This document shows, in pieces, positions 1 to 21,715 of a DNA stretch of 21,715 bases. Position 1 is the first letter of the stretch, and every line of letters starts with the position of its first letter. Under the pieces are notes generated by a model. The model made no database searches. It was not told the origin of the DNA and worked only from the letters and a program-made list of their open reading frames with translations. The DNA comes from a virus. The stretch lies in the IMG/VR virus record IMGVR_UViG_3300010153_000143, positions 1 to 21,715 of that record; one strand, 5' to 3'. Both the position numbers and the translations under genes were made by a program.

Positions 1-939
1 ATAAACAACTTCATACAATCCTTCAGTTGCACCGTGCTGTGTGAATATATCTGAAAGCGGTTCTTGATAAACTGCCGGATAAGCTTCTTGTGCATTCATC
101 ACATCATCCACCCATTGCTGGCTATAATCATATGTTGAAACAAGCTGCTGCAATTCCCACTCTGACATCCATACGCGCCTAAACAGTATTGGCGCAGATT
201 GGAGTTCAACTACTTCAGGCGGACAAAAGAACTCATCAAATGGTTTTAATGCAATTACCTGCGGACAGTTTTTAGTTACAACATCTTGCGGTATTTCAGT
301 TTGACCAGTTTCCCTTAGTTCGCGAACCAGCTTCTTAGCGCGGCTTCGTTTTAAACCAAGTTCAGCTTCTAGTATTTCAGCAGCTAAATCATTTTGGTCT
401 GGATCGGCTATCATCGCTGGCAATTGACCAAGCGGAGATTCCTCGCCGGCTTGAGTTGCAATTTCAATCAACCCTTCCATTGTGATTGGAACCATTGTCT
501 TGGTGATTTCGCGCTCCCACTTTACGTGAAGAACACCGAATCCATATTGCTGACCATAGTTAGCTAATAGATTTGCCTCTTGCCTTAAATCACCACGTAG
601 TTTGTTTTCCCTGTAATAGTTCAACAAGCTAGTAACAACTTCAGACTGAGCCGCATCGTTTACTTCAGTTGGTGCTGCACGCAGTATCCCCCGCTGAAAT
701 GCTGTAGTACATATGTCTGCATTTTCCGTGCATACCATGTCCGCAAGCCGAACTCTCGTGTCGCTTGCGCCGTCCCAAGGAAACACTTCATCCGTATCAT
801 TGGTTTGATGTTTCTTGCCGTCCTCATCCTGTCCGGCCCACACAGCAAACCGCACGTCATCCGCACGAGTACGCCTATAAGCTAGATCGTTATATCCGCC
901 GGCACGTGTGTACTCGGCGATTAGTTCATTTACCTCCAT
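1..939 (-). CDS. Phage portal (head-tail connector) protein, 3' end outside window
   Basis: An open frame of 313 codons starts at ATG 939-937 and is still open at position 1, so the C-terminal part is missing. The N-terminal part (residues about 1-95) has the layout of podoviral head-tail connectors: a charged start, DVRFAVWAG, then FPWDGASDTRVRLAD, the aromatic-Gly-Ala-Ser-Asp signature common in these portals. Portals form the dodecameric ring at one capsid vertex through which the terminase pumps DNA. The gene lies just downstream of the large terminase, separated only by a 62-residue HTH protein, the usual packaging-cluster order. The start is supported by a purine-rich AAGGGA/GGAAAG stretch upstream and a 10-base overlap with the preceding stop. 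The T7/P22-like subtype is inference; portal itself is likely. Confidence 0.8.
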   Translation of the reverse strand, partial: MEVNELIAEYTRAGGYNDLAYRRTRADDVRFAVWAGQDEDGKKHQTNDTDEVFPWDGASDTRVRLADMVCTENADICTTAFQRGILRAAPTEVNDAAQSEVVTSLLNYYRENKLRGDLRQEANLLANYGQQYGFGVLHVKWEREITKTMVPITMEGLIEIATQAGEESPLGQLPAMIADPDQNDLAAEILEAELGLKRSRAKKLVRELRETGQTEIPQDVVTKNCPQVIALKPFDEFFCPPEVVELQSAPILFRRVWMSEWELQQLVSTYDYSQQWVDDVMNAQEAYPAVYQEPLSDIFTQHGATEGLYEVVY

Positions 940-1118
940 TCAACTTTCCCTTCCCTTTTAAAATAATCATCAATTGTTTGACGTATAAATTTACGTTTTT
1001 GTTTCAACGGCACTATGAACCGGATTTCGCTATCGTCAGCGAGTGCATCTAGTTCGATTAGTGTTAGTCCGCTGTACTCCATTGCCTGTGCAGTGGTTAA
1101 TAATTTTGGCCAGTGCAT
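930..1118 (-). CDS. Small HTH (excisionase/MerR-like fold) DNA-binding protein between terminase and portal
   Basis: This 62-residue protein has the plan of short helix-turn-helix_17 proteins: LLTTAQAMEYSGLTLIELDAL (helix-turn-helix), then a wing-like EIRFIVPLKQKRKFIRQTID and a basic end. Its ATG shares the A of the terminase stop (TAATG), indicating coupled translation, and its own stop overlaps the portal start by 10 bases. Small DNA-binding proteins inside packaging clusters can assist terminase-DNA recognition or regulate late genes; which applies here is not visible. The recognition helix is weakly conserved, so the DNA-binding assignment is moderate. It resembles the genes at 9092-9274 and 13757-13951 in fold only; I see no close sequence identity. 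Confidence 0.6.
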   Translation of the reverse strand: MHWPKLLTTAQAMEYSGLTLIELDALADDSEIRFIVPLKQKRKFIRQTIDDYFKREGKVEWR

Positions 1119-2734
1119 TAGTAACTTCCTCCTCCTCTACTTTCCATACATCCCTCCTCTACCATTAAATTGTCATCCATAACTAAATATCTGAGGCAGT
1201 CAGCAAAATCCTTACAAGCACCGCGATCTTTATCTATATAGGTCCATTCCTTTAATGCATAGATGAGGTTTGGACAGTTTTTGCTTACATACAGCCTTGG
1301 ATAATTTTCATTATCAATTGGCTGTGTCGGATCGAAATACAAAAGGTCATTTATAAGTGCGACGCCTTCATCGACATGTTTGCCGGACGCAGGATAAAAG
1401 TGCATCGGCTCAAATCCGTACTCATCTAAATGCAACTTATCCAATATGCAGTTGCCGTCTAGTGTCCGATTTGATGCGGCACGTGGATCGATTAGACGCA
1501 GAAATATTTCTTCACCATCTTCAATCTCTTCAATCAACCGCTTGTATTGCCAAATAGCTAAGGCACCACCGCCTGATTTCTGTGCCGGACCTGGCGAACC
1601 ATCTGCTTTGTGTGAAGGCACGGCCCAATCACCCATAGATCGATCTGGCCATTCGCGGTAGATATAAACGCAGTCATCGACTACGCGACCCCATAGAAAG
1701 CACCAATTGCGGCTACCTGCAGGGTCCGCTATCATCAAATTCATTCCTTCATCTGGAATCTTACCGGGTTCAATAATGTGATCATCACCAAATCTCGGAA
1801 ACTGATTACCAGCGGTTGCTGTGGCCCAACCATATGCGCGGACCTTTACTTCACCGTCATGCAATCCATACAACCTCTTCTTTAATTCATTGTAGGGGTT
1901 GTAGGGATTCCACTTTGTATGAAACCAAATTGCATGCGCTCGTGGTCGCCGGCATCGCATCACATATGGCATTTTACCTTCAGGTCCATTCGGAAGATTT
2001 TGACCAGGTAACAACTCCGAATCTTCCCACTCAGTAACTTCGCCAGCACTAATCATATCTTTTACCGTCATCGAATAGCCTTCGATTGGCGTGAAGCTGA
2101 CAATTAACTTTCCGCTACGTGTAATTAAGCGGTATCTCAGTGTTTCTAGTAAATCGAATGGCACCAATTCATCACACCAAATTAGGTCCGCCTCTAACCC
2201 CTCGACCGTCCTTCGGTCTTGGCTATAGTGCATAAAGTGACATTGGCTACCATTTGGTAAAATAAACGCATTCCCAGTAAAACCGTTTTTAACTGAATAA
2301 GATACTGAAGCTACATTGCTTTTAATCTTACGCCTGTATTCGACTGGTAAGTATTTATGTATTACCGGCTGTTGTGTCTGAAGTGATGATTGATGAGTTG
2401 TATGAAAACAAATGACCCGAAGGTCTTTTTTACTCATCAATGTTTTCACGCACATCTTTGCGGCGTATTCAGTTTTTCCACTTCTATTTCCCCCGCTAAT
2501 CAGCAGTTCGTCAGATTCAGCTAGAAGCTTATCAGCTTTGGCCCAATGTTCTGGTTCATATCCAAAACGATACGGATCATTGAACTCGTCATAAATACGT
2601 TTACCACGACGCAGCATTGCATCACGGAACTCTTTCTCGCCTGCCTCCGTCTCACAGGCAACCGCCGCGTCTTCACGTGACGGCAACCTGTAGATCGGAT
2701 GCGGACGATAGATATATGGCTCCAGATCGATCAA
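1118..2734 (-). CDS. terL: Terminase large subunit (packaging ATPase/nuclease)
   Basis: This 538-residue protein is a full-length phage DNA-packaging motor. The ATPase half shows a Walker A loop GGNRSGKT (residues 81-88), a Walker B LIWCDE (184-189) with its catalytic glutamate, and the motif III coupling segment SFTP (213-216). The nuclease half has the RNase H-like acidic residues in LMIADPAG (Asp337), LIDPRA (Asp416) and KDFADCLRYL (Asp512). The enzyme cuts concatemeric DNA and translocates it through the portal encoded next door. The start is TTG at 2734-2732, which overlaps the upstream TGA in a TTGA arrangement typical of coupled translation; MIDLEPYIY follows. The C-terminus is Gly-rich and short. 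Confidence in function is high; the packaging mechanism (cos or headful) cannot be read from this window. Confidence 0.95.
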   Translation of the reverse strand: MIDLEPYIYRPHPIYRLPSREDAAVACETEAGEKEFRDAMLRRGKRIYDEFNDPYRFGYEPEHWAKADKLLAESDELLISGGNRSGKTEYAAKMCVKTLMSKKDLRVICFHTTHQSSLQTQQPVIHKYLPVEYRRKIKSNVASVSYSVKNGFTGNAFILPNGSQCHFMHYSQDRRTVEGLEADLIWCDELVPFDLLETLRYRLITRSGKLIVSFTPIEGYSMTVKDMISAGEVTEWEDSELLPGQNLPNGPEGKMPYVMRCRRPRAHAIWFHTKWNPYNPYNELKKRLYGLHDGEVKVRAYGWATATAGNQFPRFGDDHIIEPGKIPDEGMNLMIADPAGSRNWCFLWGRVVDDCVYIYREWPDRSMGDWAVPSHKADGSPGPAQKSGGGALAIWQYKRLIEEIEDGEEIFLRLIDPRAASNRTLDGNCILDKLHLDEYGFEPMHFYPASGKHVDEGVALINDLLYFDPTQPIDNENYPRLYVSKNCPNLIYALKEWTYIDKDRGACKDFADCLRYLVMDDNLMVEEGCMESRGGGSY

Positions 2735-2928
2735 TCTGTAGTGACGATCGTTGGTTCCTTATCTTCTTCCTCGTTACCAGCTTCGGCTGCTGGTCCTATA
2801 TCAAGCGCAGTTGCTAATACATTAGCTGCATTTTGCACCGCCGCTTGCTGTTGATTAGCCACTTGTAAGGCTAAATTTATCAGCGTATTTAAAGCTGATA
2901 TTGTCTGTTCCTTGTTATCTTCATTCAT
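2731..2928 (-). CDS. Small acidic helical protein upstream of terL, unknown
   Basis: This 65-residue protein is unrecognised. Residues 8-42 are Ala/Gln/Asn/Leu-rich and look like one long helix or a short coiled coil (LINLALQVANQQQAAVQNAA). The tail is acidic (EAGNEEEDKEP). It overlaps the upstream gene by 8 bases and the terL TTG start by 4 bases, so it is translated in the packaging operon. Its size, helical nature and position would suit a packaging accessory or virion-assembly factor, but no motif shows a function. Confidence 0.65.
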   Translation of the reverse strand: MNEDNKEQTISALNTLINLALQVANQQQAAVQNAANVLATALDIGPAAEAGNEEEDKEPTIVTTD

Positions 2929-3145
2929 CTTTATAACGCAGCCTCAACGCATACACGTAGTGCCACAAATCGATTATCTCTTCCTCTAGTTGACTCAGCT
3001 TTACCTTATCAACCAAACATCCTCCGTGTTCAGTCTGACCTGCCATATATTTAGCGTAAGCCAGCGCATTGAACCTTTCCATGCTTTGCCTCGCTATCTC
3101 CTCCGGCGGTAACTCGCACCGATACGGCTGTTCAGTCTCTGTCAT
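2921..3145 (-). CDS. Minimal MazG-like nucleotide pyrophosphohydrolase-family protein
   Basis: This 74-residue protein carries KYMAGQTEHGGCLVDK followed by LEEEIIDLWHYVYALR. The pattern (K-Y-x-x-G-Q-x-E-H-G-G, then E-E-x-x-D) is that of short phage relatives of the all-alpha MazG/dUTPase-like superfamily, where glutamates and an aspartate bind Mg2+ and the nucleotide triphosphate. If active it would hydrolyse an NTP to NMP and pyrophosphate. It is about half the size of a full MazG domain and probably acts as an oligomer, or has lost catalysis. The start ATG at 3145 has a good AAGGGA ribosome site 6 bases upstream and overlaps the preceding gene by 14 bases. Confidence 0.6.
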   Translation of the reverse strand: MTETEQPYRCELPPEEIARQSMERFNALAYAKYMAGQTEHGGCLVDKVKLSQLEEEIIDLWHYVYALRLRYKDE

Positions 3146-3353
3146 TTTTGTCCCTTTTGTTGATTGCCGCTACTGCTGTCTTATGCTGCAAATTCCGCTT
3201 TTCCTGTGCCATCCAGTTGCCAGTTGCCTGTCCTCGCTTGGCCAACCATTCGTCAGCCTTGCGGTTGAACTCCTTACATTGCGCCATCGAAATGTCATCT
3301 GCTGAACTGCCAGGCGCAGTCACATATAATATCTGTCCGTTTAGTCTTCTCAT
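3132..3353 (-). CDS. Small hypothetical protein, 73 aa
   Basis: I do not recognise this protein. I place the start at the ATG at 3353-3351 (MRRLNGQILYVTAPG), one base after the stop of the upstream gene. The longest reading starts at 3410 and would add 19 residues while overlapping the upstream gene by 56 bases; it is possible but less economical. The sequence is hydrophilic and basic towards the end (EKRNLQHKTAVAAINKRDKND) with a central helical stretch (MAQCKEFNRKADEWLAKRG). It sits between two packaging-cluster genes and overlaps the MazG-like gene by 14 bases. Confidence 0.6.
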   Translation of the reverse strand: MRRLNGQILYVTAPGSSADDISMAQCKEFNRKADEWLAKRGQATGNWMAQEKRNLQHKTAVAAINKRDKNDRD

Positions 3354-3354
3354 T

Positions 3355-3798
3355 TTACCAAATACCCGGGTAACGAGGTGATCGACCCATTTGCCGATAT
3401 TGATCGCCATCCCTTTGAAATTTAATCCGCATGAACTTGCCTTGCCGGTCAGGTCGCCATTTTAAGGCGTTTTGGACCCGAACGCGGTAAGTCCCACCAT
3501 TGTCGCCTTTGACCTCAACCATCTTTGAATTGCGCCAATCCCAGCGGGTCACACAACCTGTCATCACAAGTGGGACAACTGTGGTCTCTTCGATCTTGAA
3601 ATGTTGCCGCATCTTGATTAACCCGGCCGGCGTTAGGATTACCTCCCTCTCCAGACGCCAGTGTTCCGGATTAACCAAGTGCTTGTCTCTGAACCTTTTC
3701 AGGACTTTACGCGACAACCCCCATTCACCCACTAACAGCTTTTCCAAGTACTCCCCTGGCCTCATCTTCTTCACACTATAAATAGTTGGAACGATCAC
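3355..3798 (-). CDS. Hypothetical protein, first gene after the control gap; possible DNA-binding N-terminus
   Basis: This 147-residue protein is unrecognised. The N-terminal half (residues 12-65) is helical and basic, with LVGEWGLSRKVLKRFRDKHLV leading into VILTPAGLIKMRQHF, which could form a winged DNA-binding unit. The second half (75-145) is beta-rich and very basic (CVTRWDWRNSKMVEVKGDNG, then KFMRIKFQRDGDQYRQMG). The start is GTG at 3798, chosen because GGAGGG lies exactly 7 bases upstream, one of the best ribosome sites in the window. It is the first gene of the packaging cluster after a 294-base gap, so a regulatory or packaging-recognition role is conceivable, but this is inferred from position only. 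Confidence 0.7.
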   Translation of the reverse strand: MIVPTIYSVKKMRPGEYLEKLLVGEWGLSRKVLKRFRDKHLVNPEHWRLEREVILTPAGLIKMRQHFKIEETTVVPLVMTGCVTRWDWRNSKMVEVKGDNGGTYRVRVQNALKWRPDRQGKFMRIKFQRDGDQYRQMGRSPRYPGIW

Positions 3799-3907
3799 CC
3801 TGATTCCCTCCAGTAATCGATCAGCAGGAAAACCAAGAAAACCTGCTAACCTGAGTGACCGTTCCAGTCTTTTTCAAAAAATTTTTCATATGCTACTACC
3901 CATATAG

Positions 3908-3950
3908 AGAGCCTGGCCTATACCCGAAGGTCTACCCCCTCCCCGGCTCT
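3908..3950 (-). other. Predicted RNA stem-loop in the control gap
   Basis: Outer arms AGAGCC and GGCTCT pair perfectly over 6 bp. Inside, on the minus strand, ACC and GGT pair around a UUCG tetraloop. There is no uridine tract after it, so it is not a standard intrinsic terminator; a structured leader or processing site is equally possible. Confidence 0.35.
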
Positions 3951-4032
3951 GGTTGATGTTTGTGGTTAGGTTCAACTTTGATAATCTGCAACTGTTTTAT
4001 TCTGTTTTAATTGATTGGTTAGTAGACAAAAT

Positions 4033-4044
4033 AGTATACAAATT
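4033..4044 (-). repeat. Sixth copy of the attP-region 12-mer, in reverse orientation
   Basis: The plus strand reads AGTATACAAATT, the exact reverse complement of the AATTTGTATACT units clustered at 14001-14374. It is about 10 kb from those copies in this linear view and lies in the non-coding gap before the packaging genes. Confidence 0.6.
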
Positions 4045-4092
4045 TTTACACCCTTTATTACCAGTAAGTTAAACCTCACAACCTATGGCTAC

Positions 4093-4557
4093 CTAATCCA
4101 CCGTTGTTATATTGGCCCTTGGTAACCTGTCTAATACGTCCTCAATCTTGTCATCTTTCACCGACACATGCTTAACTACAGTGGCTGGCATTTCGTTCAT
4201 TAATAGGAGACTTTTTTCTGTGCATATTCCTGCGATAACCGATGCCTGAGCCGCACTGACTTCATCCTTCTCAAGCTTCTCAATCATTCTATCTGTGGCC
4301 ATCTCAGCAACCATACCCATCTTAGTAGCCAAGCGTCGCTTAGCCTCTGGGATGGACTCAAAGTGACGGTGCCTCAATACAGACACAGTCGACGGTGCCA
4401 CTCCGTAAGTCTCGGCCAGGTCGGCAACTGTCCTGCCTGCTATTAAGCCTGCAGCGATGCCTTGGTAAGCCTCTGGGTCTATCTTGCACCCAATACCCTT
4501 GGCGGGTTGTTCAACGACGTTTGCGGCGCTTTCTTCGCTTTGCTTCAAATCTTCCAT
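4093..4557 (-). CDS. HTH protein, candidate terminase small subunit
   Basis: This is a 154-residue protein. Residues 41-65 form a clear helix-turn-helix (AGRTVADLAETYGVAPSTVS, then VLRHRH). A long helical region follows (about 70-130: KMGMVAEMATDRMIEKLEK, AAQASVIAGICTEKSLLLMNE) of the kind that oligomerises in small terminase subunits; the A-x-x-A-G-I-x-x-(D/E)-K-x-x-L-L pattern is common in phage HTH proteins encoded just upstream of terL. Small terminases bind the packaging site and hand DNA to TerL. The start ATG at 4557 overlaps the previous gene by 47 bases and has only a weak AGAAG upstream. Five genes and the control gap separate it from terL, looser than usual, so a transcriptional regulator is the main alternative. 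Confidence 0.6.
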   Translation of the reverse strand: MEDLKQSEESAANVVEQPAKGIGCKIDPEAYQGIAAGLIAGRTVADLAETYGVAPSTVSVLRHRHFESIPEAKRRLATKMGMVAEMATDRMIEKLEKDEVSAAQASVIAGICTEKSLLLMNEMPATVVKHVSVKDDKIEDVLDRLPRANITTVD

Positions 4558-4741
4558 GATAATCTTCTATTAACCTTCTAGCTTTCTCAGCTTCGGATTC
4601 AGTTTCGTATGAATCCTTAATTACTGGCATTGGTTCTCCCCTTTCTAACCTTGGTCCGATTGGATGTTCGCCGGCTACCGAACGACATTTCACTTGGTAA
4701 CAATTCTGGCTTATCTCTTTGACCACAAATCTGCATGTCAC
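4511..4741 (-). CDS. Small basic-tailed protein, 76 aa, GTG start
   Basis: This protein is unrecognised. I start it at GTG 4741-4739, which overlaps the stop of the membrane-protein gene in a GTGA arrangement; the longer frame upstream is merely the shadow of that gene. Residues 1-30 look like a small beta unit (TCRFVVKEISQNCYQVKCRS), residues 45-66 a charged helix (YETESEAEKARRLIEDYHG), and the end is strongly basic (EAKRRKRRKRR). The last 47 bases also encode the start of the next protein in another frame, and the poly-basic tail comes entirely from this shared stretch. A nucleic-acid-binding role is plausible but unproven. Confidence 0.6.
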   Translation of the reverse strand: MTCRFVVKEISQNCYQVKCRSVAGEHPIGPRLERGEPMPVIKDSYETESEAEKARRLIEDYHGRFEAKRRKRRKRR

Positions 4742-8741: not shown

Positions 8742-9099
8742 CTTCTTTACTTCCTATAGTTTCTGGCACTCTTTTAGCGCCGAGAAAATTCATCATGTCC
8801 TCCATCGGAAGGATCGCTATCCAGTTTTGGTGGTTAGCCTTAAAAGCTACTATTGGAGGAAGGGCGCCATCAGCATCGTTGATCGCCTGATCTAACGCGT
8901 CTTGTAAGCGGAGCCTGTTTGTTCGTTTAACCTCCCAGTGGACAGGCAGCGACGAAATGACATCGGGGTTCTCAAGGGAACCACAGCCAAACTGAACTCC
9001 TCGTCTTGCTTCGATTGGAGACCCATCTCCCATTTGAAATTTTTTGAGATATGAGGCGAACTCAAGTTCTCCTCGCTTGCCTTTGGAACGACTATTCAA
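8725..9099 (-). CDS. Holliday-junction-resolvase-like PD-(D/E)XK nuclease
   Basis: This 124-residue protein has the compact core of archaeal-Hjc-like or phage resolvases: KGKRGELEFASYLKK (Glu11 in the first helix), ARRGVQFG, NPDVISS (Asp46), HWEVKR (Glu56 and Lys58), and a following helix LQDALDQAINDADG. The R-R-G-x-Q-x-G and E-V-K spacing is typical of this group. It would cut branched DNA before packaging. The start is TTG at 9099, strongly supported by a perfect AGGAGG (plus strand 9105-9110) five bases upstream. It overlaps the upstream HTH gene by 8 bases. Confidence 0.75.
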   Translation of the reverse strand: MNSRSKGKRGELEFASYLKKFQMGDGSPIEARRGVQFGCGSLENPDVISSLPVHWEVKRTNRLRLQDALDQAINDADGALPPIVAFKANHQNWIAILPMEDMMNFLGAKRVPETIGSKEDGNGK

Positions 9100-9274
9100 T
9101 GGAACCTCCTAGCACTTTGGCTAAGCTGCTTTGTGGGATTCTGACGATTCCACCGACCTTAATTCTCTTCAAAATGCCGCTTTCGATCCAGCGATCTACA
9201 GTCCGAGGCGTGATTCCAATGATGTTTGCAACGTCATTTCTGCTATAAAAGCTTGGTTTTTGTGACTTAATCAT
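9092..9274 (-). CDS. Excisionase-like HTH protein, first gene of the early operon
   Basis: This 60-residue protein is almost all one helix-turn-helix_17 domain: YSRNDVANIIGITPRTVDRW (recognition helix TPRTVDRW), then IESGILKRIKVGGIVRIPQS as the wing and SSLAKVLGG. It is the size of phage excisionases and Cro/Cox-like regulators. It starts the minus-strand early transcript, directly opposite the lysogeny module, so it could be the lytic-phase switch protein or Xis. The ATG at 9274 has a purine run (AAAAAAGG) touching it, a poor spacing compared with its downstream neighbours. Function as Xis or Cro is inference from size, fold and place. Confidence 0.7.
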   Translation of the reverse strand: MIKSQKPSFYSRNDVANIIGITPRTVDRWIESGILKRIKVGGIVRIPQSSLAKVLGGSIE

Positions 9275-11572: not shown

Positions 11573-12112
11573 ATGATAAACTTACCTCATATAAAACAAA
11601 ACCGGACCGTCGACGCAGACGGTGAGAATAACACCATCGACCAACTAAGCCTCCTAGAACCACATGTTCAAAACTTAGTTGTGAATGGTGCAGTGATGGC
11701 TGAGATCACAGACTACAGGGCGCCATACATGCCTCGTAGGATGCCAAAGGCAATGAGTAACAAAGGGTTCTCCCATATTAACAACATCGCAAAAACCGAT
11801 CGTTGTCCGTATGGCACCACAACCATATACAAAGCAATCAAGGACGGCAGGATCAAACCTGAATTTGTGAAGCCTGGTACACCTGCAAATCGACACAAAA
11901 GAATACACGTCGAAGAAGCTGTTAAGGCTTTGAAGAAGACCGTGAAGTTCACCAAGAACAACAAGTCTAAGATTAAAATTAAAAGTTCAAGGAGGGCCGA
12001 GTTTGCTTTCATCTCAGAAGAGAGATTCATACGAGAATGCAAAAAGCTTGGCACAGACGAGGTGCTAGACCGCCTCATAAAGGCGGATAAACAGAATATA
12101 AATGAAAACTAA
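11573..12112 (+). CDS. HTH-containing protein upstream of the integrase, possible excision/regulatory factor
   Basis: This 179-residue protein has a disordered polar N-terminus (1-55) and a central winged-helix-like DNA-binding segment (about 66-120): FSHINNIAKTDRCPYGTTTI, YKAIKDGRIKPEFVK, then HKRIHVEEAVKALKK, which is the plan of excisionase-type HTH_17 domains (helix, turn, recognition helix, wing with basic residues, helix). A very basic linker follows (KFTKNNKSKIKIKSSRR), and the last 45 residues are helical and charged. It overlaps the integrase start by 11 bases, so the two are translated together, as recombination directionality factors often are. No ribosome site is seen upstream of its ATG at 11573. 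Confidence 0.65.
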   Translation: MINLPHIKQNRTVDADGENNTIDQLSLLEPHVQNLVVNGAVMAEITDYRAPYMPRRMPKAMSNKGFSHINNIAKTDRCPYGTTTIYKAIKDGRIKPEFVKPGTPANRHKRIHVEEAVKALKKTVKFTKNNKSKIKIKSSRRAEFAFISEERFIRECKKLGTDEVLDRLIKADKQNINEN

Positions 12113-13643
12113 GATTGAATTAAAGAATGGGAATAAGATTTCCGCTTTTGTTGAATTACATCAGCTTAAACAAGATAGAGGAGGAATCACATGGCGATGT
12201 AGATACTCAATTAAGGGTAAACAAAAAGTGTTTTCTGCTAATAGGCACGATAGTAAAAACGAAGCGTTAATCACAATAAATCGTAAAATTCACGATGTAG
12301 TCAACGAAGAAAAGATTAAATCAAATCGATCCACTGCACCGACGCTTACTGAAATTGCTAAGGCATATTTAGCCGGCTCTGCCAGTTCTCTTAGTGCCTC
12401 ACAGGATACCAGAAAGTTGAACTTGTCTGCGCTCAGCAATGTCACCAAAGGCATTGTTCCTGGCGGTGAACCAACGTTCAAAAAGCTAAACGACGGTTCA
12501 TACAAATTAGTCGACGGCGGTTTCTGGGATAACTTCAGGCTAGATAAACTAGTTAAGCGTGTAGCCAAGGACTTCTTAGATAGCCGCATGGTCGGTTACA
12601 AAGAGAAGACTGATGAATGGTATGTTCGCGCACGCGGTGCCAACGATCGGCTTAGACAAGCACGTGGTGTATTCACTGAAGAGGTCAGAAATGAAATCTA
12701 CGTAGAACTCTTTAAAATGCCTGACTTGGAAGACAAGAAGACTGGATTCCTAAAAGCACGCTATTTGAAGACTCGTAAGAAGATATACAAGGCGCCAAAG
12801 CAAGCTGTCATTGATGAGATATTGGAAAAAGTCGGTGTACTTAAAACTGAAGACCCAGATATTTATGGCTGCTTCTTACTACAATATGGCTGTGGCCTTA
12901 GTTGGGGTGAAGTTATGCACGCACAGTATAGTTGGCTTGCAGAATCTGATACCCCTAACAAGGACGGTTCTACTAGATACGAAATCAATGTGCAGCCTGT
13001 TGCAGATTGGGTTCCTAAGTGTGAACGTCGCGAACGAAGTGCCACTGTCCCCGCTAACATCTTTCAAAAGATTTTGGACCTTCGCTATGCAAAGCGCCCT
13101 ATTAACTGGCGCGAAGAGGAGAAGGCTGAAATTAGTGATCAAGATTTAGCTAAGCTTGTTTGGTCAAAGCCATGCCGGCAAGTCGCTAAGGAACTTGGAG
13201 TGACTTCATCCACGGTTTGCAACTACTGCAATAAGCGTGGTATCCGCAAACCTGAGAGTGGTTTTTGGACCAAGGTACGCCTCGGCCAGGTGGAACACCC
13301 TAACGGTAATGTGCCAGCGGATGCTTTTGATGGCCCTAAATTGTCCCCTGCTGATCCGAAGCCAAATGATGGCTTCATTCTGCAGCGTCATCGTTGCGAT
13401 GGCTACACAGGCGCGAATCGTCGCCTAGCACGTTGGTTTAGGGAGAACATTACTGGATGGGACCGCAAACAGGTTGGTCACGAACTCCGCAAGATTAATA
13501 TCAGCATGGTTATATGTTCGACTGGTAGCTTGTACCAAGGTTCGAAGCACGCCGGCCATTCATCCTATAAGACTACTGAGGAGTCTTATGGTGATCTCTT
13601 AGAAAATGCACCAGTTGATATACCTCTGCCTGAAAACGAATAA
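12102..13643 (+). CDS. int: Tyrosine recombinase (phage integrase) with inserted HTH and box I Arg-to-Ser change
   Basis: This is a 513-residue integrase. The N-terminus (28-65, WRCRYSIKGKQKVFSANRHD) resembles the AP2-like arm-binding domain, and the core-binding region is roughly 78-200. The catalytic domain (about 232-500) has the beta-hairpin Lys306 (DWVPKCERRERSATVP), box II HELR (His460, Arg463), AGHSS (His486) and the nucleophile Tyr496 in TTEESYGDLL. At box I, where families read GLRxGE, it reads CGLSWGE: Ser267 replaces the first catalytic Arg. Between the lysine hairpin and box II, residues about 345-396 form an extra helix-turn-helix (PCRQVAKELGVTSSTVCNYC, then a GFWTKVRLGQ segment). 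The ATG at 12102 overlaps the upstream gene by 11 bases with no ribosome site. A terminator follows 72 bases on. Integration at 14208-14254 is inferred. Confidence 0.85.
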   Translation: MKTKIELKNGNKISAFVELHQLKQDRGGITWRCRYSIKGKQKVFSANRHDSKNEALITINRKIHDVVNEEKIKSNRSTAPTLTEIAKAYLAGSASSLSASQDTRKLNLSALSNVTKGIVPGGEPTFKKLNDGSYKLVDGGFWDNFRLDKLVKRVAKDFLDSRMVGYKEKTDEWYVRARGANDRLRQARGVFTEEVRNEIYVELFKMPDLEDKKTGFLKARYLKTRKKIYKAPKQAVIDEILEKVGVLKTEDPDIYGCFLLQYGCGLSWGEVMHAQYSWLAESDTPNKDGSTRYEINVQPVADWVPKCERRERSATVPANIFQKILDLRYAKRPINWREEEKAEISDQDLAKLVWSKPCRQVAKELGVTSSTVCNYCNKRGIRKPESGFWTKVRLGQVEHPNGNVPADAFDGPKLSPADPKPNDGFILQRHRCDGYTGANRRLARWFRENITGWDRKQVGHELRKINISMVICSTGSLYQGSKHAGHSSYKTTEESYGDLLENAPVDIPLPENE

Positions 13644-13686: not shown

Positions 13687-13714
13687 GTATGTTTACATTA
13701 TTCATTGTGTTGGA

Positions 13715-13747
13715 CCTCGTCAGCTTCGGCTGGCGGGGTTTTTCTTT
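13715..13747 (+). terminator. Strong intrinsic terminator after the integrase
   Basis: CCTCGTCAGC and GCTGGCGGGG form a 10-bp stem (three G-U pairs) closed by a UUCG tetraloop (13715-13738), followed directly by TTTTTCTTTT. This ends the plus-strand lysogeny transcript. Confidence 0.9.
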
Positions 13748-13756
13748 TATTGGTAG

Positions 13757-13951
13757 GCTTCCGGCATCGACCCACTCATCGACAAAAAAGAATTAGCCAA
13801 GCGCCTCCAGGTGACGCCCAGAACCATTGAAACGTGGATGAAGGAAGGCAGGCTTCCTTACATGAAGATGAATCGATCAGTGAGGTTTGAATGGGACATG
13901 GTCCTAAGCAGCCTCAAGCGTGACTACGGTCACAATATTCCTCTTCAGTAA
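13757..13951 (+). CDS. Excisionase-like HTH ORF without a recognisable start codon
   Basis: After an in-frame TAG at 13754-13756 the frame stays open for 64 codons to a TAA at 13949-13951. From residue 5 it reads DPLIDKKELAKRLQVTPRTI, then ETWMKEGRLPYMKMNRSVRF and EWDMVLSSLKRDYG, a complete helix-turn-helix_17 domain of excisionase type. No ATG, GTG or TTG lies in frame before the first helix; the only candidate is ATC at 13766, 7-8 bases after a GGTAGG. It is also downstream of the strong terminator, so it needs its own promoter. Lying between integrase and arm sites, it is either a real Xis with a rare start or a decayed one. It is shorter than the usual ORF length cut-off. Confidence 0.5.
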   Translation, partial: ASGIDPLIDKKELAKRLQVTPRTIETWMKEGRLPYMKMNRSVRFEWDMVLSSLKRDYGHNIPLQ

Positions 13952-14000
13952 CTGAGGGTCAAACCCATCAAACCCAAATGCAAAAATAGGTATTTATACT

Positions 14001-14078
14001 AATTTGTATACTACCCGTTTTATTCAAAATCACAATAACGCTCGATTTCTATAAAATTTGTATACTAATTTGTATACT
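14001..14078 (+). repeat. Left-arm copies of AATTTGTATACT (candidate Int arm sites)
   Basis: Exact copies of the 12-mer occur at 14001-14012 and, in direct tandem without a gap, at 14055-14066 and 14067-14078. A degenerate unit precedes the first (13989-14000) and a partial one follows the last (14079-14084). Each contains the palindrome GTATAC. Confidence 0.75.
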
Positions 14079-14207
14079 AATTTGGGTGTCTAAACCCCTC
14101 TTTTGCTTTCTTTTACTGTCTACAGTGTTTTATTGAAGAAGAAGTAAGGCAAATTCATTTAACCACTGCTATTATTGATTAAACCGCCTGTTTACTAACA
14201 AAAAAGA

Positions 14208-14254
14208 TGGTACGCGCGGCGGGGGTCGAACCCACAACCTCTGGCTTCGGAGGC
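14208..14254 (-). other. tRNA-Arg(CCG) 3' half: predicted att core
   Basis: Read on the minus strand, this is a clean tRNA 3' half. It has the anticodon loop CTCCGAA (anticodon CCG, Arg), the 3' anticodon-stem strand GCCAG, a 5-base variable loop AGGTT, a T-arm GTGGG-TTCGACC-CCCGC (one T-G pair), the acceptor strand CGCGCGT, discriminator A and encoded CCA. No D-arm or 5' acceptor strand lies upstream, and the 5' anticodon-stem strand fits only partly, so it is not a functional tRNA gene by itself. Phages that integrate in tRNA genes carry just such a 3' copy, so the host gene is rebuilt after crossover. The exact length of identity with the host cannot be known here. Confidence 0.8.
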
Positions 14255-14350
14255 TAAAAGATATGAAATGATGCTAATTTTGGGGTGTAATTTTAACCAA
14301 TAAAATCAGTACTCAAATGAAGCAGAGTAGACATTAGGTCATAGTAAAAA

Positions 14351-14374
14351 AATTTGTATACTAATTTGTATACT
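14351..14374 (+). repeat. Right-arm tandem copies of AATTTGTATACT
   Basis: Two exact 12-mers abut at 14351-14362 and 14363-14374, ending 2 bases before the stop of the last late gene. On the minus strand the pair could fold (GTATAC with GTATAC) and is followed by a T-run, so it may double as a weak terminator for the late operon. Confidence 0.75.
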
Positions 14375-14376
14375 AG

Positions 14377-14568
14377 TCACTCTTCGTCTTCATCTCGAAG
14401 TTCTTTGATCGCCTGTTGGATTACGCAAGCCTTGGCAGTTTCTAGAATGCCGATGATTTCAATCGCTGGAACTTCGGTCACATGATTGTGGACAGCTTCG
14501 CCTATGATGTCAGCGAATGACTGGCGGTCATAGAACTCTCGGTCGCTGTAATCATTCGGTGCGATCAT
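14377..14568 (-). CDS. Small acidic protein, last gene of the late operon
   Basis: This 63-residue protein is unrecognised. The N-terminus is polar (MIAPNDYSDREFYDRQSFAD) and the rest is helical (VPAIEIIGILETAKACVIQQ) with an acidic end (LRDEDEE). Its ATG overlaps the stop of the giant gene upstream in an ATGA arrangement, so it is translated with it. It is followed within a few bases by the right-arm 12-mers. Small proteins of this form often end phage structural operons; function unknown. Confidence 0.6.
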   Translation of the reverse strand: MIAPNDYSDREFYDRQSFADIIGEAVHNHVTEVPAIEIIGILETAKACVIQQAIKELRDEDEE

Positions 14569-17500
14569 CTGGCATATTCAGGAGGCTGAAGTGCTTCCTG
14601 ATATTCGGCTCTTGGGTACTGGCGAATATTGAACCCGCCTAACTTCAAAGCCTGCAACTCTGCCTGCTGTGTTGTCCGTGTGGCTTCCGGTATCAGACCA
14701 AGCCTCAGATTGCCGTGGCGGTCTCTGAACTGCCTAGCCTCTGGACGGCCTTCTGCGAGGATTTGTTTAGCCTCAGACCTCAATGCCTTGCGCTCTCTCT
14801 TCTCGCCTCTCACAGGCTTCTTAGCGACATCTTTGACTGTCCCTTGCGCCATCGGCAACTCGGTTAAGCCAAACTTGTTTAGCATGCGATCTACTACGCC
14901 ACTGGCATGACCAAGGCGGACTGCCTCCCATGCGCCAGGTTCATAGTCCAGCACCTTCGACCTAGTCTTTCGGCGACTGGTTGGATCAATAAGCATCATC
15001 ACCTCGTCGAACTGGCGCCGGCCAGGAACTAAGGTAGTCATCGTCTGATCCATCACATAAAAGGTAAGCGGCACATTAGATGCATATGGGTCTGTAATCA
15101 TCGTAGGAGGTCGATCGCCGGGTTCAGTTGTGGTGGTGTCGTATACCTTCTCAACTACCTTTATACCTCCTCCAAGCGTGAAGTAGTCTTTAAGTAAGTC
15201 TGCGCCTTGGCTTGAATATGTTCTTAATGCAGTGCTGGCAGCGGCAGATGGTCCATCCTGTTCATATGCTTTTTTGGCATCTTGTTCTGCCAATATAATT
15301 GCGCCAGCCATTACCACTGGCGGAAACTGTCTAGCGCGCCACCAGAAATCTGAATCGTCATCGTCATCAATTCCAAGCAGGCGGAAGTACTCAGACAGAT
15401 TGATACGGTTAGCTGTGATCAATTGGCGTGGAAGCTTCTTAGATTTCATCTCGCCAGTTACAGGGTCGATATATTTGTAAGTAGCTGAACCAATTCGTTC
15501 ACGCGCCTCATCATCATCCTCTCCACCTCTAAGCACCTTATCCAATACCCAGAAAGCACCGCCTCCAGTGAACATCAATAAAGTAGTTAGGTTAGCCAAA
15601 GCATCGGCACGTTTGCCTTTTGGCACCTTTCCAAGAAACACCTTCACAGCCGACGCACGTTCTAACTGTTTAGCTGACCAGTGATAAGCAAACCTTGGGA
15701 ACGGCATTAACAAACGTGAGTAATCCGTTCCTGCCATGAAATTAATAAAATTAGGTGAGTCGCTGTAATTAAGATAATCAAAGTCAGCCAACTCCATCGC
15801 CTGGATTCGATCCTGCTTTGGCGGTCTAGCCATATAGCTTGCAACCTCAATCTTCAAAGCTTCACCAGACAGACCCTTATCTTTAGCACGTCTTACTGCC
15901 TTGGCTTTTAGGAAAGCATAAGTCGCACGTTGTTTAGCGCGAATATCAATGTTGCCGTATTGGATTGCCTGTAATGCTGCAGCACCTATTTCACCCTGGC
16001 GTAAATACTCCCAAGGTTTGACGTGGTGCTGGATCTTCAAATCCTCTAATGCAGTTGATCCTTCAAATACATCATCTGGCATTATCTCTTCAGCGAACTG
16101 ATCAAACTCAGTTTTCCAGCCAACCATCTTTCTAATAGCGGCGAACTTGTAGAACTGAGAAGTAAACAGATTCTTAGCGAACCTCAAATCATCTACACCA
16201 GCTTTGCCTTGCAGCGAAGCCAGCTTCAACAATCCGCTGGTTGTGTTCTTTGCAATTGCCTCTGCGGTGAACATATCGTTCGACAGCACGTTGATCACGT
16301 ATGTGAACGGATGCGCCAAAAGTGTCTGTGTTGAATTACGAATGGCCCATGCACCTGCACGGATCAACCAATTATGAACCTTCTCGGCGGCATATCCATC
16401 TTGAAGCAACTTAACTAAGCGCTCGTTGATTTGATAGTTCTTGCCGCGCATCTTTAACGCTTCACCAATAAACTTAGAATATGAAGCCAAGTCACTTGGA
16501 ACTGATTTCTTGCTTAGCCTTTTCTCAATCTCAGTGTCAGCACCGATAGTACTGAAATTCTGAAATGCTTGAATAGCATCCCACACAACATCGATGCCTG
16601 TAGATAGTCGGACGTGACCAGGCAATAGTTTCTCACCCGGCTTAATCGGCTTAGCACCATGCCGAATGATGTTTTCAAAGTATTCCTTACGCGCTTTCTC
16701 TCGGATCGCTTGGTAAGCGCGAATACTGAAGCCTTCAAACAAACCCTGCAGATCGCCGCCTTTGCGTGAGTAACCTGCAAAAACAGGCTTACCGCTTACC
16801 TCATCCTCTTCGTATTCAGGCGCAATCTCCCCTTCCCTTGCGGTTCCGGTTTTGTATTTGCGACCAGGTGAACGTGACCCAGCCTTTGGATTAAATACAC
16901 CTTTGAGTGCGCCAAGCAGGCTTCGGCTAACTATGACGTCTGGCGTGTAGCCGGCAACGCCAACCATAGGATCTTCACCTTCAGCAATATCCTTTTCACC
17001 CATTAAATATTCTAGGCTGAAGCGATTGAATGCCGGAACCTCAACTCCGTTAACCACTGTGCGTGTTTTCTTAAATGCCGGATCAATAAACTGATCGACG
17101 GCCCAGATCATGTCAGGAAACTCATTAGCAAAGTGATCATATATTTCACCCTGCTGTTCAGCGGACACCTTTCGGATAAGCTGATAACCTTGCCTGCCAT
17201 CCACTACAATATGGTTAGCGATTATGAGTTCATCCATTTCCCCGGTGACCTCGTCTTTAACTAAGATTTTATGACCAGGCTTGTGACCTTGTTTTTTAAA
17301 TTCTTTTAAAGGCATCATTCCGGCACGCATTTCAAAGTCTGTGAAATTGAAAGTGCCATCTTCATTCCTGCCTATAGCATTTAGATGCGCTGATATTGGT
17401 AGTGCCAGCTTGTAAAACTTCTTGAGACGCTTGGCCCACTTACCAACTCTAAACCATTTAGGAAGTTTGTATCCAGTCTGACTATCCCAGGCATCATTGA

Positions 17501-20500
17501 CTAACTTCGTATGAAGTTCTTCAACTGTTTTACGAACTGCACGCGCAGCGTATGCCTCTTCTAGTTCAAGTTTTTGCTTGGCACGTAGAGTTGCTTGTCC
17601 TCCAAAGTAAACTATCTGCCTACTCTTTCTGCCAAATGTCTGCTTGATGATTGAGTTAACAGTACTGTTGTTTTCCTCCTCAATATTCTCAACTTCGATT
17701 GCTTCGTAGCCTTCAATAACATTGATGCGTTCACGCGCCTTTGGACTGACACGCACTGATAACCTCGGCGGCGGAACTCGTTCTTCAACTACTGCAGCTT
17801 CTTGCGCTGCTAAAGCTTCATCATAGCTTTGTGAATACGGAATTTCTTTTGCGCCTTTTAGATTAAAGGTGCCGGCACGTTCGCCTAGAGTTAACGGTTC
17901 TCCGCCTTTATATGCCAAGAACACAACATCCGGCTCGCCGTTGTTGTAGCCTTGATATGTTGTTTTGTCCCAATCAGGTGGTGCTTGGCTATCGTCCCAA
18001 GGCAGTCTTGCGACCGGCTCAAAACCGTAGTCAGCATAGATGTCTGGAAGGACGGTATTGAAAGCATCAGCTTTTTTTGCGCCTCCAGCTACAGCCACAT
18101 TTAGCAATGAACGAATTGGACTGCTTGCACCTTTGCGTGTGTTACTAAACACACTAACCATATCCCCGTCAGGCTTAACAGCTATACCGCTTTTACCATC
18201 TGGCGAAACGAATAACCGCATCTTCGAGTATTCGGCTGCTTTGTATGCGTATACAGAACTGCCATGCTTGTTGCCTTTCTTGGCTTCAAGAATCAGGTTG
18301 CGGAATACTTTACCGGACTTCGGTTTTAATTCGACTACCGGACCTGTGTAGGTCGGTCGGCTTTTTGGAATTGATTGGGATAGTTCAACCTCGGTGCTGG
18401 ACGGATCGAATACCGTGCCAACGTGATCCTTTAAATCAGGCCGAAGTTTTCTAACTCCTCGATTGCCTTTTCGCGGGGTAAATCGTGCGACTTCATCACC
18501 CGGTCTACCAATCCGTCGTTCAACTGATGGACGGTCTTCGGCTGGTCGTTTGATGATTCCTCTGATTGCTTTTTCGCTGTAGCCAGCGTCCCTAAAAATT
18601 GCTGCATCGACGGCATCCTGCCTTCGTTTTGCAGCCGCTGAACGTCCTTTTGCAATCCTTGGGGGTTTAATGCCTTTTTCATTTAATAACTTTTCTGCTG
18701 CGGATTTGTACGAATACGATTTTATATTCGCACCGAGTGCGGCCCAGAGTTGCTGTTCGTAGTACCACCAGACAGCCTGGAACTCGCTAGGAGTTAAACC
18801 TACTCGTTCGGCTGCTGCAAGTATGAACGCATCCATGCGCTCTCTTTCTGTGTCATTCCTCGGTGCTTCAACTATCTTACCTTTATCATCAAGCGCGGTT
18901 CCCATTAAACGGTTCCACGAACGACTGAACCAAAGGTCTTTGGTCATCTCTTGCGAGATACCATTTAGGTTCAAAAAGAACGGACCTCCTTTAGGTCCAA
19001 AAATGTGTGCGCCATACTTCATGTCATCAGCGTAACCACTGACGTGCTTGTTGTACTGGCGAAGTTCACTAACTGGATGCTTTGTTTTAAGCCACTTGGC
19101 TGCACCCTTCTCACCAAACTGATTAACCAATAGACTAATGCGGTCCATATTCATCTCAACGATGTCGCCGCGTGCTGTCCATCCTTTGCCATCTGGCTGG
19201 CGTTTTGGCAGGTTATTAAAGGTTCCACCTGCTGCTTCGTAAATTCTAGCTGCCGTTGCAAAGTTCTGCATCGGTGTTGTGCCATATGATGTTGGCGCCA
19301 ACAGTGCTTTGAATAAGGTCATATGTTCCGGCTTCTTCATTGCCTCATATGCCAGGACCAAAGCCTTATCCATATATTTGATGTCAGCTTCATACCAATC
19401 AACACCACTGTCTGGCTGCTGTAATTGATAAGTAACTTCATCAAGCGCATTGACCATCGCCTGCGCTATCTGTCGATTCTCTTCAGATTCTAAAGTGAAT
19501 TTCTCGCCTGTAAGTTTAAGTGATAAATCCTCAAGCGCGTTTGCAACATCCTTAGTTGATATTGATCCGCCTTTACCTGTGCCAACAATTCCCATTGGCA
19601 TATCAACAAACTCACGACTGCCAACATTACGGACCGATTGCCTTCCAGCTTCTGGTTTAGACATTACACGGCCACGCACTCGCGGTGCCGGTATCGGCTC
19701 TGCATAACGCTCTGCATCAAGCATTGGATAACCGTACTTGATTCCTCCTTGCTGAATATCAAACCCTGATCCTGGCTGCACTAAATGGCGTTTAGCATCT
19801 GATCTAAATTCTTTTTCGTTATTATATATAACCGGCTCTCCAACAGTTGCCTCACCAATATATTCAGCATCTCCTTCGCCTGTCCTTGTAATACGAATGC
19901 GCTGACCAACAGCAGCACGTAATGAATCAGTGTTTCTTGTCTCAACAGTTTTCTTACCGTCAACAATAAGATCGGCAAATCTTGCGTCAGCCTCATTACG
20001 AACATTGACTCCTCTCAACTTGTCTTGAACTGAATATTTAATCTCACTTGATGGTTCGACATCTGGTTCACCAACCTCAACCTCAGATTCAACATCGTCA
20101 GGCAATGGAATAGTCACCGGCTCAAGAGTGTCTTCAGGCTTCTCGCGCATTCCAACTTCACCGCGATCCACTCGTCTTAATATAGATGCAGCAGATCGGA
20201 TGTTTAGCATCCCTGTAAATTTATCGTATAGCCGTTTGAAGATTCCATCATCACCACCGCGCTTAACATAATATTCATAAGCACGTGCGACATCTTCCTC
20301 CTGCCTAATATCGTCCCGATCTTCCCTGCTATATTTAGATACCAGTGTTTGATATTCCTTTTCGGTCATCAACCCAGTCTCACGCAGGAAGTGAATTGCC
20401 TCATGCCTGAAAGTGCCAATATCAACACCAGCACCTAACTGCATCAAATATGAATCAGGAATCTCAACCGCATTGCCATCAGCATCAACGACACTGTTCT

Positions 20501-21715
20501 TTGTGAATGCACCAATAGTGACTGCCTCTTGAAGTTTCTCGTCTTGTTCTTCTTTAGATAAAGCATCCCACTCTGACTGTTCCATGCCAGTCTCAGACAA
20601 GTATGATTGAACATCGACGTCACCCTGCATCTCAGTGAAGTCGATTTTCAGTTCAATACCATTATCAAGTTTTACATCGTATCCAGATTCGCTGTCAGTG
20701 ACCTCACCGCCAAGCACTGTCTGTACATCTTTTGCTTTAACTCTGTGTTTACCTAACCTGATTGGATCAAGCACACCGTCTCCGAGTGCTGTCGCCTCTG
20801 TTTCAATCCTCGTTTCAAGGCTGTCCGGCTTCTCGGCAACCTCAACCGTTCCAAGGTCGAATGCGCCACGGTAGTAACTATTGGGGTTCGCGTTCTCGTG
20901 TTGTTCAATTAGTGTCGTGAGATCAGAATTAGTATCATCAACTTTGATATACTCGTGTGTGGTTCCAAGCGGTTCGCCTTCTTTAATCTCTGGCACGCGC
21001 TCAAACATTATCACCCGTCCGTTGTGACCTTTGAGTCCATCAAGTTCTTCTGACCCATCGATAAGTTTCTTAGCTTGTTCGTTAGTATATCGATCGCGGT
21101 ATATCGCAGTATTACCTTTTGCTAAGAAATCATTTAATTCTTTAACCTTCTGTTCTTGGCTAACATCAACAGCAGTTTTAACCATTCGGCCAGGCGCGAG
21201 TATGTATGGCATTGCCTTCAGCGTCTCACCTGTTGTTTCAAGTAAGCGATCACCTAGCGGAGTGCCTTTCATATCAACATCAGATATTGATTGTGCAATC
21301 GCCTCGCCAGCAGCCATTGTGATTTCCTGCGCGACTTCTTGTCCTACATTGGAAGTAACATCAGCACCAAATTGAATAGCATTACGTTTGAGTGTGCCTT
21401 TAACTTTATCAGCAATCTTCTGTACGACGAATCGCTTCATTCCAGGCGCAACCTTAGAAACCTGCGCGTACTCAAGTAGCGCATATGGAATACCCATTCC
21501 TTGTGCAACTGGTGCTGCGACATTATGAGGGACGCCTTCTTCACGTAGATCGGCATATAAAGAACCAGCACCTTGTCGGAACCAATACTGAGTAGAACCA
21601 ATTGTCATCCCTGCTGCTGCAGCCACTGGAACAGTTACCACTTCTTCAGGCGCTGCAATCTGCGGTCCGGCTTGACCAGCAACTAATGCAGTTGTGCCTA
21701 ATGCTGTCCCATAAG
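14565..21715 (-). CDS. Giant phage 'large polyvalent protein', multidomain virion-type, 5' end outside window
   Basis: The frame is open from the right edge to TGA at 14565, at least 2382 residues. A GTG at 21641 exists but the frame continues upstream of it (YGTALGTTALVAGQAG), so the true start lies outside. Counting from that GTG: a metallopeptidase-like region with HEAIHFL (413-419) and a downstream EEDVARAYEYYV; an ASCH/PUA-like region (about 535-645: DARFADLIVDGKKTVETRN, then KYGYPML); a conserved phage region with YGTTPMQNF and LTPSEFQAVWWYYEQQLW (about 670-1000); a GNAT-like region (about 1105-1245: KPDGDMVSVFSNTRKG, YADYGFEPVARLPWDD); and a long C-terminal part (about 1450-2350) with HPFTYVINVLSNDMF and MPFPRFAYHW, resembling the LPD38-type end of such proteins. 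These giants are thought to be packaged in the virion and ejected into the cell. Roles of the single domains are inferred. Confidence 0.8.
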   Translation of the reverse strand, partial: YGTALGTTALVAGQAGPQIAAPEEVVTVPVAAAAGMTIGSTQYWFRQGAGSLYADLREEGVPHNVAAPVAQGMGIPYALLEYAQVSKVAPGMKRFVVQKIADKVKGTLKRNAIQFGADVTSNVGQEVAQEITMAAGEAIAQSISDVDMKGTPLGDRLLETTGETLKAMPYILAPGRMVKTAVDVSQEQKVKELNDFLAKGNTAIYRDRYTNEQAKKLIDGSEELDGLKGHNGRVIMFERVPEIKEGEPLGTTHEYIKVDDTNSDLTTLIEQHENANPNSYYRGAFDLGTVEVAEKPDSLETRIETEATALGDGVLDPIRLGKHRVKAKDVQTVLGGEVTDSESGYDVKLDNGIELKIDFTEMQGDVDVQSYLSETGMEQSEWDALSKEEQDEKLQEAVTIGAFTKNSVVDADGNAVEIPDSYLMQLGAGVDIGTFRHEAIHFLRETGLMTEKEYQTLVSKYSREDRDDIRQEEDVARAYEYYVKRGGDDGIFKRLYDKFTGMLNIRSAASILRRVDRGEVGMREKPEDTLEPVTIPLPDDVESEVEVGEPDVEPSSEIKYSVQDKLRGVNVRNEADARFADLIVDGKKTVETRNTDSLRAAVGQRIRITRTGEGDAEYIGEATVGEPVIYNNEKEFRSDAKRHLVQPGSGFDIQQGGIKYGYPMLDAERYAEPIPAPRVRGRVMSKPEAGRQSVRNVGSREFVDMPMGIVGTGKGGSISTKDVANALEDLSLKLTGEKFTLESEENRQIAQAMVNALDEVTYQLQQPDSGVDWYEADIKYMDKALVLAYEAMKKPEHMTLFKALLAPTSYGTTPMQNFATAARIYEAAGGTFNNLPKRQPDGKGWTARGDIVEMNMDRISLLVNQFGEKGAAKWLKTKHPVSELRQYNKHVSGYADDMKYGAHIFGPKGGPFFLNLNGISQEMTKDLWFSRSWNRLMGTALDDKGKIVEAPRNDTERERMDAFILAAAERVGLTPSEFQAVWWYYEQQLWAALGANIKSYSYKSAAEKLLNEKGIKPPRIAKGRSAAAKRRQDAVDAAIFRDAGYSEKAIRGIIKRPAEDRPSVERRIGRPGDEVARFTPRKGNRGVRKLRPDLKDHVGTVFDPSSTEVELSQSIPKSRPTYTGPVVELKPKSGKVFRNLILEAKKGNKHGSSVYAYKAAEYSKMRLFVSPDGKSGIAVKPDGDMVSVFSNTRKGASSPIRSLLNVAVAGGAKKADAFNTVLPDIYADYGFEPVARLPWDDSQAPPDWDKTTYQGYNNGEPDVVFLAYKGGEPLTLGERAGTFNLKGAKEIPYSQSYDEALAAQEAAVVEERVPPPRLSVRVSPKARERINVIEGYEAIEVENIEEENNSTVNSIIKQTFGRKSRQIVYFGGQATLRAKQKLELEEAYAARAVRKTVEELHTKLVNDAWDSQTGYKLPKWFRVGKWAKRLKKFYKLALPISAHLNAIGRNEDGTFNFTDFEMRAGMMPLKEFKKQGHKPGHKILVKDEVTGEMDELIIANHIVVDGRQGYQLIRKVSAEQQGEIYDHFANEFPDMIWAVDQFIDPAFKKTRTVVNGVEVPAFNRFSLEYLMGEKDIAEGEDPMVGVAGYTPDVIVSRSLLGALKGVFNPKAGSRSPGRKYKTGTAREGEIAPEYEEDEVSGKPVFAGYSRKGGDLQGLFEGFSIRAYQAIREKARKEYFENIIRHGAKPIKPGEKLLPGHVRLSTGIDVVWDAIQAFQNFSTIGADTEIEKRLSKKSVPSDLASYSKFIGEALKMRGKNYQINERLVKLLQDGYAAEKVHNWLIRAGAWAIRNSTQTLLAHPFTYVINVLSNDMFTAEAIAKNTTSGLLKLASLQGKAGVDDLRFAKNLFTSQFYKFAAIRKMVGWKTEFDQFAEEIMPDDVFEGSTALEDLKIQHHVKPWEYLRQGEIGAAALQAIQYGNIDIRAKQRATYAFLKAKAVRRAKDKGLSGEALKIEVASYMARPPKQDRIQAMELADFDYLNYSDSPNFINFMAGTDYSRLLMPFPRFAYHWSAKQLERASAVKVFLGKVPKGKRADALANLTTLLMFTGGGAFWVLDKVLRGGEDDDEARERIGSATYKYIDPVTGEMKSKKLPRQLITANRINLSEYFRLLGIDDDDDSDFWWRARQFPPVVMAGAIILAEQDAKKAYEQDGPSAAASTALRTYSSQGADLLKDYFTLGGGIKVVEKVYDTTTTEPGDRPPTMITDPYASNVPLTFYVMDQTMTTLVPGRRQFDEVMMLIDPTSRRKTRSKVLDYEPGAWEAVRLGHASGVVDRMLNKFGLTELPMAQGTVKDVAKKPVRGEKRERKALRSEAKQILAEGRPEARQFRDRHGNLRLGLIPEATRTTQQAELQALKLGGFNIRQYPRAEYQEALQPPEYAR

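Follow-up and report, generated by a model that had tools for sequence, protein, structure and literature searches.

A natural helix-turn-helix module inserted in the catalytic domain of a phage integrase

Can a phage integrase carry a complete helix-turn-helix (HTH) domain within its catalytic half, and what would such a domain do there? The question is raised by a 21,715-base virus record from IMG/VR (the window, meaning the whole stretch of DNA that was analysed), the gene content of which is temperate-looking and indicates a tailed phage. The minus strand carries genes for a terminase large subunit, a DnaB-like helicase, and a helicase loader, a Holliday-junction-nuclease-like gene, and a composite, polyvalent-protein-like ORF of 2358 aa (14565-21641). 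The plus strand carries a run of genes whose last member is the integrase. The ORF that precedes the integrase overlaps its start and is probably co-transcribed with it.

11573-12112, plus strand: 179-aa ORF, 11 bp overlap with the integrase start (ORF list)
12102-13643, plus strand: tyrosine recombinase (integrase) gene, 513 aa (ORF, phrog_1, 7-integrase profile, Foldseek)
12141-12320, plus strand: arm-binding-like N-terminal domain, aa 14-73, three strands and a helix (inferred from predicted structure)
12786-13082, plus strand: first half of the catalytic domain, aa 229-327, with box I, lysine hairpin, and next helix (L154 alignment, pLDDT)
12900-12902, plus strand: Ser267 at the catalytic Arg I position, box I CGLSWGE (alignment; comparators have Arg)
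13017-13019, plus strand: Lys306, presumed catalytic lysine of the beta-hairpin (invariant alignment column)
13083-13358, plus strand: whole insertion, aa 328-419, HTH module with flanking linkers (gap against L154, abutting profile matches)
13128-13289, plus strand: HTH module, aa 343-396, LVWxxP, HTH, KPxxGxWxK (profile match, AlphaFold2)
13290-13358, plus strand: Pro-rich C-terminal linker of the insertion, aa 397-419, PADAFDGPKLSPADPKP (sequence, pLDDT)
13359-13598, plus strand: second half of the catalytic domain, aa 420-499, with H460, R463, H486, and Y496 (L154 alignment, motifs)

The integrase and its interrupted catalytic domain

The 513-aa protein matches phrog_1 (E 5.7e-11) and, across the whole catalytic domain, a profile of seven other integrases from which the window was excluded (E 5.4e-20). 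It is a divergent integrase, since it matches phrog_1 but gives no match to PF00589 at E values up to 1. In Foldseek searches with the whole integrase model, the top matches were Cre, IntI4, and XerH, with low global TM-scores, as expected from the low-confidence domain placement. AlphaFold2, which was run with an alignment of eight integrases, predicts for aa 14-73, at low pLDDT (about 50), strands at 15-23, 29-37, and 40-46 and a helix at 48-73. This predicted topology fits the one described for arm-binding domains in a survey of tyrosine recombinases (PMC8138268).

The earlier note had placed an HTH at 13134-13289, in a position where tyrosine recombinases usually have only a short loop. 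These coordinates do encode aa 345-396 of the 513-aa ORF, and the segment lies, as claimed, between the lysine hairpin (K306 in WVPKCERRER) and box II (H460-E-L-R463). Its extent needs revision: an HTH is present at aa 345-396, but the full insertion, linkers included, spans aa 328-419. The corresponding loop is indeed short in other integrases, with a K-to-H spacing of 57-80 in nine of them compared to 154 in the window.

The boundaries of the insertion are given by L154, the closest integrase found. BLASTP splits the alignment into two collinear segments, window 229-327 with L154 188-275 (30% identity, E 4e-10) and window 420-499 with L154 279-356 (31% identity, E 8e-5), so that 92 window residues (328-419) replace 3 in L154. 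The seven-integrase profile, with the window excluded, also gives two matches, hmm 15-265 to aa 26-334 and hmm 264-342 to aa 418-501, which abut in the profile and are 83 residues apart in the window protein. None of the nine homologs compared carries the module; these include L154 and L141, the insert-free integrase of a phage with a 61% identical terminase.

AlphaFold2 predicts the segment as a separate three-helix HTH and not as an ordinary part of the recombinase fold, which agrees with the claim. Within the catalytic core, most of aa 240-330 has a pLDDT of 83-91 and aa 441-490 one of 79-89; the value is about 73 in the HTH helices (346-355, 358-365, and 369-378) and below 50 in the joining stretches (335-343 and 383-422). 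The HTH segment is a true insertion into the recombinase catalytic domain. Two other identities for it were considered. An ordinary loop of the recombinase fold was rejected because a separate HTH is predicted and the insert is absent in homologs, and an intein or endonuclease remnant was rejected because no splicing or nuclease motif is present. No HNH nuclease domain was found in the window protein, whose similarity to HNH families is confined to their HTH part.

The module and its relatives

The claim that the segment is an HTH was borne out by a profile of 25 independent modules from which the window was left out (Z set to 10,000). This profile matches aa 343-396 with 63.9 bits (E 4.4e-18), while the best score among 5000 shuffled copies of the integrase protein is 14.6 bits; a chance HTH-like sequence was rejected on this comparison. 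No other window ORF passes E 5 against the profile. In the module alignment, W, P, C, P, G, and W are invariant and further residues, among them L, A, G, and R, are almost invariant, and the shared motif (VWxxP, HTH, KPxxGxWxK) is present in the window module. Modelled alone in AlphaFold2, the module has a pLDDT of 76.9, with three helices (11-20, 23-30, and 34-44) and a C-terminal one (53-59). Foldseek with the module alone gave HTH matches that were all weak, with E values above 0.001, and searching the PDB by sequence gave no clear relative. Weak matches to RWP-RK (PF02042) occur in 25 of the 26 modules, and the window module, with 20.2 bits, is below the Pfam gathering cutoff of 29.3. Membership proper in RWP-RK was therefore rejected, and the weak scores leave only a remote kinship.

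Outside integrases the module does occur as an element of its own, as the earlier note had stated: it is found at the N- or C-terminus of plasmid proteins, HNH homing endonucleases, and a second endonuclease-like family. By tblastn, plasmid proteins match aa 341-397 at 44-45% identity (E 9e-6 to 2e-5), and a Vibrio phage HNH endonuclease is 43% identical to the module (E 2e-6). A scan of genome contigs yielded 67 loci with the module, and none of these was identified as a recombinase from its position and motifs. The module apparently represents an undescribed domain family, and the window copy was probably drawn from a pool common to phage homing endonucleases and plasmid proteins.

Several observations concern this wider family. 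The module is widespread, mostly in alphaproteobacterial plasmid-type proteins of about 450 aa, with scores under Pfam cutoffs (L003, L021-L087). Five phage-contig proteins of about 550-590 aa (L102, L115, L116, L117, and L129, of which L115 is incomplete) seemingly hold two module copies each. In L009 and L010 the module forms the C-terminus of the nuclease-like family phrog_5018, of unknown function, the N-terminal part of which resembles a PD-(D/E)XK domain by eye.

A second case was found by a DNA-pattern scan and a profile scan. Two tyrosine recombinases from phage contigs, L014 and L132, contain the module (E 4e-21 and 3e-16, respectively). They are 55% identical overall and both keep it, and by alignment the module is kept through substantial divergence in this line. 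It lies just before box I, in another loop than that of the window. Because these proteins match the window in the HTH only, the module must have entered recombinases at least twice, at different loops.

A second copy of the window's exact architecture was not found in the searches made. In IMG/VR exact-peptide scans, neither the complete integrase nor its HTH or box II gave a match, and tblastn with the integrase gave none among phages and only the HTH part among plasmids. No homolog of the HTH-masked integrase was found in 229 Gammaproteobacteria genomes, and none of the L141 integrase in 289 Alphaproteobacteria genomes. Alignments that combined integrases with modules came out misaligned and were discarded.

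Comparison with known recombinases

The gene thus encodes an ordinary phage integrase, with arm-binding-like, core-binding, and catalytic domains, into the catalytic domain of which a whole mobile HTH module has been inserted. In the alignments, the insertion site falls past the lysine-hairpin helix and before box II, in the loop that holds the insertion of integron integrases. In profile alignment with the integron integrase IntI4 (2a3v), which likewise has an extra catalytic-domain segment between these two elements, the integron-specific segment and the window insert open at an identical profile position, and the inserted sequences are unrelated. The I2 helix of integron integrases docks extrahelical attC bases and contacts DNA (PMC7790495); since the IntI4 segment opens at this position, the window loop should allow an insertion to reach DNA. 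However, I2 is a helix of about 20 residues, absent from other proteins, that serves folded attC DNA, whereas the window has a 54-residue HTH module common to many proteins, and its integrase is that of a phage, next to a putative attP of tRNA type. No integron attI/attC cassette array was seen in the window, and the context is one of phage genes with a tRNA-like putative attP.

In engineered Cre-type recombinases, a zinc-finger domain has been inserted within the chain, at Cre residues 278/279, and dependence on the extra site has been shown (PMC11631766). These enzymes share with the window a DNA-binding domain within the recombinase chain, but theirs is engineered, whereas the window HTH is natural and follows the lysine-hairpin helix. 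The HNH homing endonucleases of phrog_15471 (e.g. that of Vibrio phage 11895-B1) carry the same module at the C-terminus of an HNH nuclease and include no recombinase. The phage integrases L154, L141, and L150 have the same catalytic domain but no HTH, with a K-H spacing of 63-70 and Arg I present. L014 and L132 have the same module in the catalytic region and also lack Arg I, but apart from the module they do not match the window. In the CTnDOT integrase subgroup Arg I can be missing, and the available part of the survey describes no HTH insertion there (PMC8138268). The window integrase would work most like the engineered zinc-finger-insertion recombinases and its insertion is placed like integron I2, but it is a member of neither group.

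Catalytic-domain insertions of integron, Tn916/BPP-1, and archaeal types are listed in the available part of the same survey, which mentions no complete DNA-binding domain placed there (PMC8138268). Searches of the open-access literature turned up no account of a tyrosine recombinase with an HTH insertion. A DNA-reading domain in the catalytic half has so far been reported for engineered enzymes only and, in other form, for integron integrases. A natural HTH insertion in a phage integrase is a rare and testable case. Together with L014 and L132, it suggests that nature did something similar to the engineered zinc-finger insertions, with an HTH, at least twice and in different loops, one of them the integron loop.

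Attachment-site context and possible roles of the insertion

Downstream of the integrase are a terminator-like hairpin (13712-13741) and a 61-aa excisionase-like ORF (13766-13951, plus strand; DPLIDKKELAKRLQVTPRTIETWMKEGRLP) that has no ATG, GTG, or TTG start, and ATC at best. The following elements were read from the sequence.

4019-4042, minus strand: additional repeat pair at a distance of 10 kb from the integrase, in the space separating 3355-3798 and 4093-4557 (sequence scan)
13991-14014, plus strand: 12-bp direct repeat pair, TATTTATACTAA TTTGTATACTAC, candidate arm sites (sequence scan)
14057-14080, plus strand: 12-bp direct repeat pair, TTTGTATACTAA, candidate arm sites (sequence scan)
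14208-14253, minus strand: tRNA 3'-half-like sequence (loop CTCCGAA, T-arm GTGGGTTCGACCCCCGC, end CGCGCGTACCA), candidate attP core (inferred from sequence)
14353-14376, plus strand: 12-bp direct repeat pair on the opposite side of the tRNA-like core (sequence scan)

The pairs at 13991, 14057, and 14353 are of the repeat TTTGTATACTAA, which has seven sites in the window compared to 0.36 expected. The T-arm of the tRNA-like sequence matches Rfam at E 0.77 only, and no host copy of this sequence was found in 563 genomes at three or fewer mismatches. The tRNA-like sequence may be the attP core and the repeats its arm sites, and the presence of 12-bp repeat pairs on both sides of such a core suggests that the attachment site is functional.

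It is about an even call that the HTH assists or gates recombination through an additional, specific contact with DNA. Such a contact would most likely be at attachment-site or regulatory DNA. The HTH would hang from the catalytic domain on flexible linkers, and each protomer would gain an extra sequence-specific grip on DNA beside the core site, at either the attP repeats or the host DNA around attB. Such a grip could strengthen or gate assembly of the recombination complex, by analogy with the zinc fingers inserted in engineered Cre-type recombinases. If the HTH does gate recombination, the window would offer a test case for how acquired domains give integrases new specificity, and a model from nature on which programmable recombinases could be based. 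A stronger version, in which the HTH has to bind its own sequence beside the core before assembly or action of the catalytic domain is possible, such insertions are a recurrent route (used at least twice) to new specificity, and loss of Arg I is linked to them, is doubtful.

It is unlikely that the insertion is instead a passenger that is neutral or nearly so, a piece of a homing-endonuclease or similar gene lodged in a tolerant loop. In phage HNH and other endonucleases the module forms the DNA-binding C-terminus, GC is 0.51 in the insert and 0.43 in the rest of the gene, and the loop tolerates insertions, as in IntI. However, the reading frame is unbroken, the signature residues (VW..P, A, G, KP..GxW) are retained, nothing remains of an endonuclease, and L014 and L132 have retained the module despite their divergence.

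The catalytic residues bear on a further alternative, in which the protein is no longer mainly a recombinase but a DNA-binding regulator of phage genes, acting for example at the repeat pairs at 13991-14376 and 4019-4042. The integrase keeps K306, H460, R463, and H486. The nucleophilic tyrosine of these enzymes is usually at H+9; the putative nucleophile here, Y496 (13587-13589), is at H486+10, as is a tyrosine in L141, L014, and L132, and L154 has one at both +9 and +10. Arg I is replaced by Ser267 in the window and by Asp in the HTH-bearing L014 and L132 (TGMDPG), and it is retained in the HTH-free comparators. Its loss in two of two HTH-bearing families is suggestive in this small sample. 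With Ser267 at Arg I and Tyr496 at +10, catalysis is not assured. However, the CTnDOT integrase lacks Arg I and is active, with another Arg substituting (PMC8138268), so the loss is no proof of inactivity. Repeat pairs are not confined to attP: the one at 4019-4042 lies between two genes and is possibly an operator. Yet the other catalytic residues and a nearby tyrosine are all retained, and the gene adjoins an attP-like site, as integrases do. A role mainly in regulation is improbable.

It is still less probable that the HTH fold serves protein contacts, in multimerisation or in docking of an excision factor, and not DNA reading. Several small HTH genes lie nearby (9092-9274 and 13766-13951), which makes excision-factor partners plausible, but the module is elsewhere often joined to DNA-acting proteins and no evidence of a partner was found. 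An artefact, either chance HTH-like sequence or chimeric assembly, is highly improbable: the window is a single metagenomic contig, and a near-identical one (L136) spans only 1-4611, but the module score far exceeds the shuffled maximum, both flanks are collinear with the contiguous L154, and the ORF is uninterrupted.

The contig L136, also from IMG/VR, is 99.7% identical to window 1-4611. The minus-strand repeat pair at 4019-4042 is absent from L137 and L138 and is kept in L136, which extends the phage past window position 1.
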